From Zunongwangia endophytica (GTDB lineage: Bacteria > Bacteroidota > Bacteroidia > Flavobacteriales > Flavobacteriaceae): a stretch of DNA of 64,000 bases. This document shows positions 32,055 through 45,345 of the stretch, in pieces (position 1 is the stretch's first letter; each line of letters starts with the position of its first letter). The notes under the pieces are model-generated. The model searched no databases, had not been told where the DNA came from, and worked only from the letters and a program-made list of their open reading frames with translations. The translations under genes and the position numbers were made by a program. The DNA is taken from contig NZ_JAUFPZ010000002.1 of NCBI RefSeq assembly GCF_030409505.1, forward strand, positions 310,001 to 374,000. The letters are read 5' to 3'.

Positions 32055-32086
32055 AAAAAAAGCCATCTTTCGAGATGGCTTTTTTT
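32055..32086 (+). terminator. Terminator downstream of the GNAT-nitrilase gene
   Basis: A textbook hairpin: GCCATCT, loop TTCG, AGATGGC, with a 7-base A-run before and T-run after. It lies about 140 bases beyond the stop codon. Confidence 0.9.
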
Positions 32087-37799: not shown

Positions 37800-39071
37800 A
37801 TGGAAACTGCATTGGCACAAAAATCATATATACCTACATTAGAAGCTGTTAGAGAAGCGGCAGATAGAATTTCTAAAGTTGTTGTAAACACTCCTTTAGC
37901 CGAATCTTTTACATATAGTAATCGTTTTGGTGCAAACGTGATGTTTAAAAGAGAAGATTTACAACAGGTACGCTCTTACAAGATTAGAGGAGCTTACAAT
38001 AAGATTTCTAGTTTGCCAGCAGATCAGCTTGCTAAAGGTGTAATTTGTGCCAGTGCAGGAAACCATGCACAAGGTGTGGCTTTTGCCTGTAATAAGCTTA
38101 AAACAAAAGGTGTTATTTATATGCCAAGTACCACTCCAAGTCAAAAGGTTGCCCAAACAAAAATGTTTGGTGGAGAATGGGTAGAAGTTGCTTTAGAAGG
38201 AGATACTTTCGACGATTCTTTTAAAAACGCGATGATAAGAGCTAGCGAAAATGATTTGGTTTTTATTCATCCTTTTGATGATGAAAAGGTGATCGAAGGT
38301 CAGGCAACTATAGGTTTAGAAATATTGCAACAATCTAAAGAGCCTATCGATTACGTATTTGCACCTTTAGGAGGTGGTGGATTGTTAGCCGGAGTATCTT
38401 CTATTTTCAAAGAATTATCTCCAAATACTAAGATTATCGGTGTGGAGCCTGAAGGCGCGGCATCCATGTCAGCTTCGTTAAAAGAAGGCAGGCTTATAGA
38501 ATTAGCGCATATTGAGCGTTTTGTTGATGGAGCTGCGGTACAGAAAGTAGGAAGCCGAAATTTTGAAATCTGTAAGCATAATTTAGATCAGATGATCACA
38601 GTCCCTGAAGGGAAAATATGTCAGACAATTCTGGATCTTTACAATCAAGATGCCATTGTCGTAGAACCTGCCGGTGCAATGTCCATTTCAGCTTTAGATT
38701 TTTTTGCTGAAGAAATAAAAGGTAAGAATGTTGTTTGCATCGTAAGTGGTAGCAATAACGATATTACCAGAACCGCTGAAATTAAAGAGAGAGCATTACT
38801 TTATGCAGGATTGAAACATTATTTTGTTGTTACTTTTCCTCAAAGAGCAGGAGCCTTACGTGAATTTTTAGATGATGTTTTGGGAGCCACAGACGATATT
38901 ACACATTTTGAATACTCTAAAAAACACGAAAGAGAAAACGGGCCAGCCGTTGTAGGTATAGAGCTGAAAAGCAAAAATGATTTTGAGCCGCTATTAAATC
39001 GTATGAAAGAGCGTAATTTTTATGGTCGATATTTAAACGATACACCAGATCTTTTTCAGTTTATTATTTAA
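37800..39071 (+). CDS. ilvA: Threonine dehydratase (biosynthetic)
   Basis: A pyridoxal-phosphate enzyme that deaminates threonine to 2-oxobutanoate for isoleucine. The PLP lysine is in the segment QVRSYKIRGAYNKIS, and the phosphate loop is LGGGGLLAG. One ACT-like regulatory domain follows at about 335-423 (HYFVVTFPQRAGALREFLDDVLG), so at 423 aa it is the single-regulatory-domain form. Last gene of the ilv operon. It makes the operon able to supply its own isoleucine precursor. Confidence 0.95.
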   Translation: METALAQKSYIPTLEAVREAADRISKVVVNTPLAESFTYSNRFGANVMFKREDLQQVRSYKIRGAYNKISSLPADQLAKGVICASAGNHAQGVAFACNKLKTKGVIYMPSTTPSQKVAQTKMFGGEWVEVALEGDTFDDSFKNAMIRASENDLVFIHPFDDEKVIEGQATIGLEILQQSKEPIDYVFAPLGGGGLLAGVSSIFKELSPNTKIIGVEPEGAASMSASLKEGRLIELAHIERFVDGAAVQKVGSRNFEICKHNLDQMITVPEGKICQTILDLYNQDAIVVEPAGAMSISALDFFAEEIKGKNVVCIVSGSNNDITRTAEIKERALLYAGLKHYFVVTFPQRAGALREFLDDVLGATDDITHFEYSKKHERENGPAVVGIELKSKNDFEPLLNRMKERNFYGRYLNDTPDLFQFII

Positions 39072-39080
39072 TGATATTTA

Positions 39081-39113
39081 TTTTTGAAAGTTCACATTTA
39101 AAAACTATATTTA
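39081..39113 (+). promoter_or_regulatory. Promoter of the arginine operon
   Basis: TTTTTG (39081-39086), 19 bases, then TATATTTA (39106-39113). This fits the Bacteroidota TTG/TTTG-N19-TAnnTTTG pattern well and predicts a transcript start near 39120, giving a leader of about 345 bases. Confidence 0.65.
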
Positions 39114-39155
39114 CTCTGTGAGAAAAAAAGCTCAAATAATATTATCTAATAATCG

Positions 39156-39191
39156 ATGCCCCATGCGCCGCGTGTGGTAATCCTTATATAA
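39156..39191 (+). CDS. Short frame inside the first leader hairpin
   Basis: An 11-codon frame MPHAPRVVILI within the inverted repeat. A second ATG at 39163 in another frame gives MRRVW. One or neither may be a real leader peptide; both cover the hairpin CCCCATGC-GCC-GCGTGTGG (39159-39177). No ribosome-binding sequence is seen. Confidence 0.2.
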   Translation: MPHAPRVVILI

Positions 39192-39285
39192 TTACTTCTA
39201 ATTAATATTATTTGAAAACTTTACTTTGAAAAATCCACTAAACATACTACAATTACTAAAGAGCTTTGAAGTTCTTTTTACTTCT

Positions 39286-39381
39286 TTGAATAACATATTC
39301 AGTAGGGAAAATCTTCCTACTGCTATTCTTATTCCTATACGCCGCCGTCGCAGCCCCCGCCGCACGCAAGTGCGTGTATAA
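39286..39381 (+). CDS. Arginine-rich leader peptide candidate
   Basis: An open frame that ends in codons for PIRRRRSPRRTQVRV then TAA. Seven of its last fourteen residues are arginine, encoded almost only by CGC and CGT, although the surrounding DNA is AT-rich and mostly uses AGA for arginine. The first possible starts are TTG at 39286 (31 codons) or TTG at 39226 (51 codons); no ATG is in frame. It ends 83 bases before the first gene of the arginine operon. The position and the seven arginine codons make an attenuation or ribosome-stalling leader the best explanation. Confidence 0.45.
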   Translation: MNNIFSRENLPTAILIPIRRRRSPRRTQVRV

Positions 39382-39464
39382 TTTTATGGAGCTTAGGTGA
39401 GTCCGGTTCCCCTTTCAGTCAGAATTTCAACTTATTTTTTTTCAATTTTATAATCGCTTAGCAA

Positions 39465-40094
39465 ATGAAGATTATCATTGCTAATAAATCTCATGCAAAA
39501 TTTGCTGAGGTTATTTGTACAACCATAGAAGAATCTGCCAAAGTTCGTGGTACAGGTATCGCTCGTCGTACTCCAGAATATGTAATTACCAAAATGGAAA
39601 ATGGTAATGCTATTATAGCTTTAGATGGCGATAAATTTGCCGGATTCTGTTATATCGAAACGTGGAGTCACGAGAAGTATGTCGCAAACTCAGGCTTAAT
39701 CGTCCATCCCGATTATCGAAATCAAGGCTTAGCGAAAGATATTAAAAAAGCAGTTTTCGATTATTCCAGAAAAAAGTATCCTGAAGCCAAGATTTTTGGG
39801 ATAACTACAGGTCTAGCCGTAATGAAAATTAATTACGAGCTGGGGTATCAACCCGTTACTTTTTCTGAACTTACTGATGATGAAGCTTTCTGGAAAGGCT
39901 GCCAAACCTGCAAGAACTATGATATTCTAACTCGTACAGAACGTAAAATGTGTTTGTGTACAGGAATGCTATACGATCCTGAAAAAAAGAAAAAAGAAAA
40001 AAATAAGCACGATCTCAACGAGAAAACTTTTACCCGATTAAAAAATATTAAGCAAAGTCTTTTCTATAAAAAAGAAAAAAACAACCAAGATTAA
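39465..40094 (+). CDS. GNAT acetyltransferase at the head of the arginine operon
   Basis: A 209-aa protein with a GNAT domain (about 1-140; acyl-CoA loop VHPDYRNQGLAKDIKKAV) and a C-terminal extension containing Cys146-x2-Cys149 and Cys163-x-Cys165, which could hold zinc. No argA or argJ is otherwise present in this otherwise complete operon, so this is the best candidate for the glutamate N-acyltransferase (acetyl or succinyl) that starts the pathway. The tail after residue 170 is very rich in lysine. argG follows at 14 bases. Function is inferred from context. Confidence 0.8.
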   Translation: MKIIIANKSHAKFAEVICTTIEESAKVRGTGIARRTPEYVITKMENGNAIIALDGDKFAGFCYIETWSHEKYVANSGLIVHPDYRNQGLAKDIKKAVFDYSRKKYPEAKIFGITTGLAVMKINYELGYQPVTFSELTDDEAFWKGCQTCKNYDILTRTERKMCLCTGMLYDPEKKKKEKNKHDLNEKTFTRLKNIKQSLFYKKEKNNQD

Positions 40095-44398: not shown

Positions 44399-45345
44399 AT
44401 GAAACATTACACAAGCGTTCACGATATCGAAAACCTTGATGAATTAATACAAGAAGCCATTCAACTTAAAAACAAGAATTCGGCTGCGAACTTAGGAAAA
44501 GGAAAAACCTTAGGTTTATTATTTTTCAATTCTAGTTTACGTACGCGTTTAAGTACAGAAAAAGCAGGTCGACTTTTAGGAATGGAAGTGCTTACCATGA
44601 ATGTTGGTGCCGATGGGTGGGCGTTGGAATTTGAAGATGGTGCGATTATGAACTCAGATAAGGCAGAACATATTAAAGAAGCTGCAGCGGTGTTGTCGCA
44701 ATATTGCGATGTTATTGGAGTACGTGCCTTTCCTGGGTTAAAGGACAAAGAAAAAGATGAAGAGGAACAGGTAATTAATTCGTTTAAAAAATTTGCCAGT
44801 GTTCCTGTCGTGAATTTAGAAAGTTCTACCGGCATCCGTTACAAGCGCTAACCGATGCTATTTCTATTACTGAATTAAAGAAAAAAGATAAACTGAAAGT
44901 AGTGCTAAGCTGGGCGCCACATCCAAAAGCTTTGCCACAATCGGTTCCCAATTCTTTTGCTGAAATGATGCAGAAAATGGATGTCGAATTTTGTGTAACA
45001 AATCCTGAAGGTTACGATCTTAGTGATCGTGTTTTAAACGGAACGAAAGTTTATCATAACCAAGACGAAGCTTTGAAAGATGCTGATTTTGTGTATGTAA
45101 AGAACTGGAGTAGTTACGAGAAATACGGAGAAGTATTGTCTAAAGATCCGAATTGGACATTTTCGAAAGAGAAATTAGCGCTAACTAACGATGCTAAAGT
45201 GATGCACTGTCTACCGGTTAGACGAAATGTAATAATTACAGATGATGTATTAGATAGTGAAAATTCAGCAGTAATTCATCAGGCGAATAACAGAACGTAT
45301 GCAGCTCAAGCTGTTTTAAAGCAAATATTGGAAGAACTTGATTAA
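44399..45345 (+). pseudogene. argF': N-acetyl/N-succinylornithine carbamoyltransferase with a frameshift
   Basis: Transfers a carbamoyl group to acylated ornithine. The first frame (44399-44851) carries FFNSSLRTRLSTEKAG, the carbamoyl-phosphate motif, and runs off into a stop after ESSTGIRYKR. Reading one base out of phase from about 44831 restores RHPLQALTDAISITELK, which contains the expected HPLQ motif, and then the frame from 44902 continues through APHPKALPQSVPNSFAE, KNWSSYEKYG and HCLPVRRN to 45345. One missing C in an ACC/GGC context (44829-44832) explains everything; with it the protein would be 315 aa, the normal length. It may be a sequencing error, since the rest of the operon is intact. 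If real, the pathway is broken or rescued elsewhere. DKAEH occurs where Bacteroides succinylornithine enzymes have DKPEH as I recall, so the acyl specificity is open. Confidence 0.85.

Follow-up and report, generated by a model that had tools for sequence, protein, structure and literature searches.

The window, that is, the whole stretch of 64,000 nucleotides of Zunongwangia endophytica DNA that was analysed, carries an operon for arginine synthesis. The last base of ilvA is 39071, and the arg operon opens with a gene for a GNAT acetyltransferase at 39465..40094 on the forward strand, according to gene calls and domain matches. Judged by its position, this enzyme is presumably an N-acetylglutamate synthase. 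The genes that follow it are argG, argC, proC, argD, the gene for acetylornithine carbamoyltransferase, argB, a gene for an ArgE/DapE-type deacylase, and argH. In the window, the carbamoyltransferase gene is divided into two frames, 44399-44851, which matches the N-terminal half (NCBIfam), and 44902-45345, which holds the OTCace C-terminal domain (Pfam). The split may reflect either a genuine lesion or an error in sequencing.

A series of features, all on the forward strand, can be recognized between ilvA and the GNAT gene. The promoter at 39081..39113 consists of TTTTTG (39081-39086) and TATATTTA (39106-39113), which is close to the flavobacterial TAnnTTTG box. Four nucleotides after the -7 box, a GTG codon opens uORF1 (39118..39180), a first leader peptide that reads VRKKAQIILSNNRCPMRRVW up to its stop. 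Inside uORF1 lies the 5' arm of the P0 helix (TCAAATAATATTA, 39132..39144); it pairs with a 3' arm (TAATATTATTTGA, 39203..39215) that ends 10 nt before the start of the second leader peptide. A small hairpin, CATGC-GCC-GCGTG (39162..39174), holds the two uORF1 Arg codons and has related sequences in five congeners. The second leader peptide, uORF2 (39226..39381), comprises 51 codons from a TTG at 39226, a start assigned by comparison with congeners, to the TAA at 39379-39381, and it ends in IRRRRSPRRTQVRV. Its putatively regulatory Arg codons, CGC CGC CGT CGC ... CGC CGC, lie at 39340..39363, as read from the sequence and from their positions over 128 loci. Just before them stands the hairpin H0 (CAGTAGG...CCTACTG, 39300..39322), found by its excess of folding energy. 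The hairpin H1 (CGCAC-GCAA-GTGCG, 39361..39374) was recognized from folding, covariation, and geometry, and the hairpin H2 (GGAGC-TTA-GG-TGAGT-CC-G-GTTCC, 39388..39410) from covariation, arm swaps, and core conservation. The conserved core of H2, AGGTGAGTCC at 39395-39404, emerged from a scan over the 128 loci. From H2 to the first gene there is a G-poor stretch (39411..39464), defined by base composition over 126 loci.

Several of these features had been seen in the original prediction. The promoter at 39081-39113 is present in the sequence, and a transcript starting there, upstream, fits the comparative promoter evidence given below. The frame PIRRRRSPRRTQVRV-TAA, with its seven Arg codons (CGC/CGT) directly before the arg genes, and the GC-rich hairpins at 39162-39174 and 39361-39374 are likewise there. 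The leader is larger than was first described, and it also comprises H2 at 39388-39410, the hairpin in the frame at 39300-39322, and the Arg-bearing uORF1 at 39118-39180.

The same arrangement recurs in related genomes. An Arg-codon frame precedes the GNAT gene in all 30 relatives that were first fetched by their GNAT protein. From 12 of those 30 loci, a covariance model of 57 positions (R1) was built, which covers H1, the spacer, and H2. R1 matches 241 of 397 family genomes at E<=0.1, and 210 of the 330 family genomes of good quality. Among the matches listed, G267 is the sole genome with two, and the others have one each. For the comparisons below, 128 loci were read, one per genome, of which 30 were reached via the GNAT gene and 98 via R1. 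The alignment across flavobacteria that the original prediction had proposed as a check bears out this part of it, as the Arg frame and covarying stems are conserved over much of the family. The GNAT gene is directly downstream of the leader in 126 of the 128 loci; this adjacency was free to fail in the 98 loci found with R1, and it holds in 96 of them. Two loci, L083 (genome G089) and L138, keep the leader with the GNAT gene not adjacent and argG farther on; G089 is absent from the GNAT-search matches listed. In the first ninety genomes (G000-G089), a hand count gave 60 with a GNAT gene, of which 52 are among the R1 matches listed, and 30 without one, of which only G089 is among those matches. 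Three genomes (G002, G003, and G005) are not among the R1 matches listed, yet the leader is present in them, and a further five (G038, G052, G070, G074, and G086) have a GNAT gene and no R1 match listed. In G074 (L146), the GNAT gene is present and no leader was seen before it. Since ilvA stands upstream in only 17 of the 128 loci, some of the stretches being short, the leader is independent of this neighbour. In searches outside, R1 matched 22 of 296 genomes in a sample of the order and 16 of 395 in a sample of the phylum, all of them in its own family; the lack of matches outside the family in these two samples is weak evidence, as many genomes there belong to the same family.

The reading frame of the Arg codons differs sharply from the other two. 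When 20 codons before the H1 arm were compared over the 128 loci, with the last three codons excluded so that the stem could not mimic the result, 9 in-frame stops were found in the Arg frame vs. 114 and 176 in the other frames (2560 codons each), and 327 Arg codons vs. 120 and 78; the loci are related and hence are not independent draws. This comparison indicates that the Arg frame is a short leader ORF under coding selection. The peptide itself was followed in the 124 loci with a match to the H2 core, where the most Arg-rich frame ending there was picked. At least three Arg codons fall within the last 14 codons in 117 of these loci, the frame ends in RRP and a stop in 99, and the peptide has proline at its C-terminus in 103. 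Of the 529 Arg codons, 486 are CGC or CGT. The rest of the uORF2 peptide is highly variable in sequence and length over these 124 frames. Relative to the H1 loop, Arg codons stand at -5 in 117, at -8 in 112, and at -11 in 53 of the 128 loci; more distal ones are found at -20 in 53 and at -23 in 54.

A second Arg-rich frame often lies farther upstream. Frames resembling uORF1, with at least three Arg codons at their end, were found in 82 of 128 loci vs. 6 and 13 in two controls, and about 10 of the 82 resemble the ends of upstream genes (e.g., L069, L074, L010, and L137). A set of 71 two-ORF loci was then defined by a distance to H1 of 130-195 nt, from which L069, L074, and L124 were taken out individually. 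The window belongs to this two-ORF class. A promoter box with at least five of the six consensus bases precedes uORF1 in 71 of 71 loci, where the scan took the best of several gaps and, if there was a choice, of in-frame starts, and where single random positions reach five of six in 8.6% of cases. The box ends 4-5 nt before the uORF1 start codon in 67 of the 71. In the 46 loci without uORF1, an ATG is present in 39, and 29 of those have a box of five or six, mostly 7-8 nt before it. In the available part of a published promoter map of F. psychrophilum (PMC9723704), TAnnTTTG is the -7 box of sigma-A, and for this reason the transcripts probably start at or near the start codon. Tandem Arg-rich leader ORFs placed right after a promoter box are, to our knowledge, unusual.

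The P0 helix joins uORF1 to the region in front of uORF2. In the 71 loci, its own arms reach a mean score of 20.3 vs. 17.2 for swapped arms (sd 3.9), and a score of at least 20 is found in 40 of 71 loci vs. 24% of swaps. The sequence of the helix differs between lineages, and the pairing is kept. A comparison with shuffled sequences, in which the helix scored above all 20 shuffles in 24 of 128 loci, is a weak test, so the arm swap was preferred. The support for P0 is moderate.

Local structure is concentrated at three places in the leader. When 36-nt windows from the 128 loci were folded and compared with dinucleotide shuffles, peaks appeared for H0 at -46 (-2.62 +/- 0.19 kcal/mol), for H1 at +2 (-3.07 +/- 0.13), and for H2 at +32 (-2.13 +/- 0.13); the remaining windows, apart from the shoulders of the peaks, ranged from about -0.6 to +0.84. 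H0, a candidate pause hairpin, recurs in place throughout the family. It is weak in the five congeners, L002-L006, in which no strong local H0 was found and the segment is no more stable than its shuffles (z +0.9 to +1.6). In the window itself, H0 has its centre near -55 vs. the family offset of -46. The form of H1 in most relatives is CGCCC-GTAA-GGGTG, whose loop contains the stop codon. The window has GCAA as its loop instead, and its frame stays open across the hairpin as far as the stop at 39379. The stop codon falls within the H1 loop in at least 106 of the 128 loci; the loop was placed wrongly in L027, L058, L065, and L104, so 106 is a lower bound and the 22 loci outside are an upper bound. 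In about 15 loci, the stop is clearly beyond the loop. The hairpin and the Arg codons are kept with the stop outside the loop in L070, L081, L082, L106, and L107, suggesting that the geometry of codons and hairpin is kept, rather than the stop codon. The distance from the H1 loop to the H2 core is 27-29 nt in 109 of 128 loci, the H1 stem has only 5 bp in 84, and the loop is GTAA in 85.

Covariation within H1 and H2 was evaluated with an alignment of 100 loci (A3), which is model-fitted and leans towards the structure. Its score was 0.231 vs. 0.097 +/- 0.006, a value reached by 0 of 500 shuffles. Pairing is kept in 97.0% of the A3 cells, and both partners have changed in 7 of the 12 pairs (six in H2 and one in H1); 27 of the 100 rows lack the outermost pair of H1. 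A comparison that is not model-fitted leads in the same direction for H2: its outer stem has at least five pairs in 126 of 128 loci with its own arms vs. 60.7% with swapped arms. H2 covaries strongly and H1 at one pair. A consensus fold from a MAFFT alignment recovered only H1 and two inner pairs of H2, and it missed the outer pairs because the arms of H2 were misaligned.

The core of H2 is conserved in sequence as well. Exact AGGTGWGTCC (AGGUGWGUCC in RNA) is found in 119 of the 128 loci, and in some variants both bases of the inner pair have changed and still pair (AGATGTGTTC). The core was weighed as a Shine-Dalgarno-like element against what we take to be the complement of the 16S end. This idea was dropped, since AGATG variants occur in 5 of 128 loci and the core is absent from 17 diverged leaders. 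Docking of H1 into H2 through a GNRA tetraloop was also dropped, as the H1 loops TTAA, GTTT, and GTCA occur too. In the organism's own genome, the only other TAGGTGNGTCC is antisense to a coding frame; it is at the chance level because a reversed control pattern gives three matches.

Outside the closest relatives, the Arg codons and the H2 core part company. The core was found in 0 of 17 diverged leaders. Seven of them (L143, L144, L147, L148, L149, L167, and L178) have Arg codons and another hairpin whose sequence is unrelated to H2, such as GTGATGT/ACATCAC in L143, GAATGGT/ACCATTT in L148, GAAAACGA/TCGTTTTC in L144, and GAAAATTGG/CCGATTTTC in L147. In five of the 17 (L151, L152, L158, L160, and L162), a scan found no 6-bp hairpin before the gene. 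A hairpin at this position may predate the H2 core, for which the outgroup evidence is mixed, and the core itself appears from these sequences to be a feature of the family. By eye, Arg leaders of different sequence were seen in the families f2, f3, f9, and f15, and none in f5 and f16. Unrelated Arg frames stand before the GNAT gene in f9 (L151, L157, and L159; e.g., RCRR with a GGCG(C) hairpin), RRRP or RRRRP frames in f2 (L148 and L153), and Arg-bearing frames of unrelated sequence in f15 (L152, L158, L160, and L162). Among the 19 genomes of g161 with a GNAT gene (L163-L181), inspection by eye found no Arg leader in 14. Several of these loci seem to hold a longer ORF that starts near TTTTGAAAT and ends overlapping the GNAT start (ATGA). 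A short leader ending in RP and a stop, with a GTAA-loop hairpin, is kept in L166, L167, and L178, and other Arg-bearing frames occur in L180 and L181.

Ribosome-mediated attenuators are known for amino-acid operons of the trp, his, ilv, leu, thr, and phe types. The leader resembles the trp and his types in having an ORF rich in codons for the product, with hairpins around these codons, just before a biosynthetic operon. It differs from them in its Arg codons, in the frequent presence of two tandem ORFs, in starts that lie right after the promoter box, and in the conserved H2 core; neither a conserved antiterminator pairing nor a conserved terminator with a U-tract was found. The original prediction had taken the leader for a ribosome-stalling attenuator that switches through alternative pairing of its GC-rich segments. 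Its sensing part and its placing before the operon stand. The pairing of GCGTGTGG (39170-39177) with CCGCACGC (39360-39367) is perfect in the window (8 of 8) and interrupted in all five congeners, which keep 7, 6, 6, 5, and 7 of the 8 pairs with longest unbroken runs of 5, 2, 2, 2, and 5; it was rejected as the switch. A switch between the Arg codons (CGCC) and GGUG of H2 was set aside by eye for inconsistent placing, as CGCC is absent from the aligned part of L007 and lies only farther upstream in L005, and both keep H2. No conserved mutually exclusive pairing was found among those examined. H2 was rejected as a general intrinsic terminator because at least five T in the following 8 nt are found in only 18 of 128 loci. 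The same count after H1 is 77 of 128. Over the 128 loci, no conserved intrinsic terminator with a U-tract of the trp/his type was found before the first structural gene. The first reading is partly supported: it was right in kind, and its switch was not borne out. Upstream of ilvD, at about 32062-32086, a perfect hairpin is followed by seven T, so the genome does have ordinary U-tract terminators.

Known regulators and RNA families did not account for the leader. The window gave 0 matches to Rfam at gathering cut-offs, and a search of 39060-39470 at E<=1 gave two matches only, both on the reverse strand and far below their cut-offs. No curated covariance model of a T-box, a riboswitch, or any other Rfam family was matched. 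ArgR is the repressor to which the control of arginine synthesis is usually ascribed. The C-terminal domain of this protein (PF02863) was found in 0 of 40 genomes of the order (the organism's own and 39 relatives), while a control search was positive in 8 of 14 control genomes, one of them a Bacteroides. Comparative work on attenuators reportedly covers Bacteroidetes. Among the matches listed in searches of open-access papers, none described a leader for arginine from Bacteroidota. The F. psychrophilum study (PMC9723704), on an organism of the same family as the window, gives in its available text strong indications that amino-acid operons are attenuated through leader peptides, and it also describes the TAnnTTTG box; that text names no arginine leader. 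The available text of a Bacteroides thetaiotaomicron study (PMC7366714) describes short ORFs reminiscent of attenuating leader peptides. PMC2965389 contained none of the terms sought, and the available parts of PMC4833913 and PMC8632094 treat leader genes or uORF motifs, none of them for arginine in Bacteroidota. The S. aureus rbfL leader (PMC13009471, available text) is similar in that pausing of the ribosome in a short ORF with Arg codons signals a shortage of arginine. It differs in blocking the ribosome binding site of a biofilm regulator, and thus translation initiation, in having two Arg codons, and in that low arginine represses. The nearest analogue is speF/orf34 of Salmonella, a gamma-proteobacterium (PMC6386406), in which, according to the available text, Arg codons in a short ORF precede a hairpin that lies beyond the stop codon, a lack of orf34 translation leads to termination by Rho, and the arginine-dependent step is decay by RNase G. 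That leader controls an inducible ornithine decarboxylase, whereas the target here is arginine biosynthesis, and the sequence and layout differ.

The comparison across genomes shows the leader frame and its Arg codons, three hairpins with their spacing, and the link with the arg operon, in genomes in which no ArgR was detected. On this basis, the leader at 39118-39464 very probably senses arginine for the arg operon by way of the ribosome, and the sensing of arginine through the movement of ribosomes over Arg codons is well supported. Beyond this, the charging of tRNA as the sensed signal and the direction in which control acts are proposals, and the output step is the most tentative of them. 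As the promoter box suggests, transcription would start at, or a few bases from, the uORF1 start codon. Ribosomes would first translate uORF1; uORF2, the start region of which could be held in P0, would follow, and at the end of each ORF the ribosomes would encounter Arg codons in or beside hairpins. H0 would probably pause the RNA polymerase and keep it in step with the ribosome. When charged tRNA-Arg is scarce, the ribosome would dwell on the Arg codons, H1 would be held open, and the polymerase would enter the operon. With ample arginine, the ribosome would reach the stop codon and leave, and H1 would close beside H2. The exposed G-poor RNA would then cause the transcript to be lost, most likely by Rho termination before the first gene. 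The Arg codons at -23 and -20, which are present in under half of the loci, do not fit a stall that holds H1 open, because a ribosome stalled there is short of the 5' arm of H1 and would not cover it.

For the output, factor-dependent (Rho) termination in the G-poor stretch after H2 is favoured because no intrinsic terminator is conserved, and this preference is a tentative one. From H2 to the gene, G makes up 5.9% and C 16.2% (6477 bases, 126 loci), compared with 8.9% and 11.0% upstream of GNAT genes without an Arg leader (700 bases, 14 genomes). Because the arginine-dependent step of speF is decay, Rho becomes less probable and decay more so. Stalled or released ribosomes would then set the cutting of the H1-H2 region and, through it, mRNA stability, as with RNase G at Salmonella speF/orf34. 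The available text on that system (PMC6386406) describes a leader that is also arginine-repressed and has no intrinsic terminator, in addition to its Arg codons in a short leader ORF and its hairpin after the stop, and H2 is compact, conserved in its core, and mostly without a U-tract. On the other side, speF encodes a degradative enzyme, and its layout is different and longer; control by decay is a possibility of rather low probability. It is somewhat less probable still that H1 is a weak intrinsic terminator with a U-rich spacer of 16-18 nt, opened directly by the stalled ribosome, with H2 as an auxiliary pause hairpin. The window's H1 does score as terminator-like, and T-rich stretches follow H1 in more than half of the loci, as counted above. 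However, the stem is limited to 5 bp in most loci, U is not enriched directly after H1 (T 0.49, 0.25, and 0.45 at the first positions), and the window also holds the ordinary strong terminator near 32062-32086.

Two further explanations concern the sensor rather than the output. Peptides that arrest the ribosome are known from the fungal arginine attenuator peptide and from TnaC, and the frequent RRP-stop end of uORF2, with its final proline, could slow release in such a way that the nascent peptide senses free L-arginine. The remaining peptide, however, varies greatly in sequence and length, the Pro codon is accounted for by the sequence of the H1 stem, and the loci in which the stop lies clearly past the H1 loop do not fit, which makes this explanation improbable. 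It is very improbable that the hairpins alone matter, as in a leader that binds a protein or a metabolite, and that the Arg codons are a by-product of GC-rich stems. The H2 core is indeed conserved beyond the needs of a hairpin, being exact in nearly all of the loci. However, the frame is open and Arg-rich outside the H1 arm with the last three codons excluded, Arg codons end uORF1 too, and diverged relatives keep Arg codons without the H2 core.

A broader reading can be put forward, although it is more speculative than probable. The family may use leader switching without an exchange of terminator and antiterminator, in which the place of the ribosome is read through H1 and through H2 as a hairpin specific to arginine operons, the H2 core AG[G/A]UGNGU[C/U]C binds a trans-acting factor, and two tandem, nearly leaderless leader peptides drive the switch in many genomes. 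As a part of the same reading and with the same reserve, the factor that binds H2 might be a termination factor, a nuclease, or an RNA-binding protein.

The sensing half of an attenuator would be kept in these bacteria, with the textbook output half missing. The leader is an RNA element linked to the arg operon that occurs in 241 of the 397 family genomes sampled and has no counterpart in Rfam. In genomes without a detected ArgR, a translated RNA leader stands where the control of arginine synthesis would be expected. How Bacteroidota end transcription or destroy the mRNA after leader peptides becomes a testable question in a small and well-conserved element.
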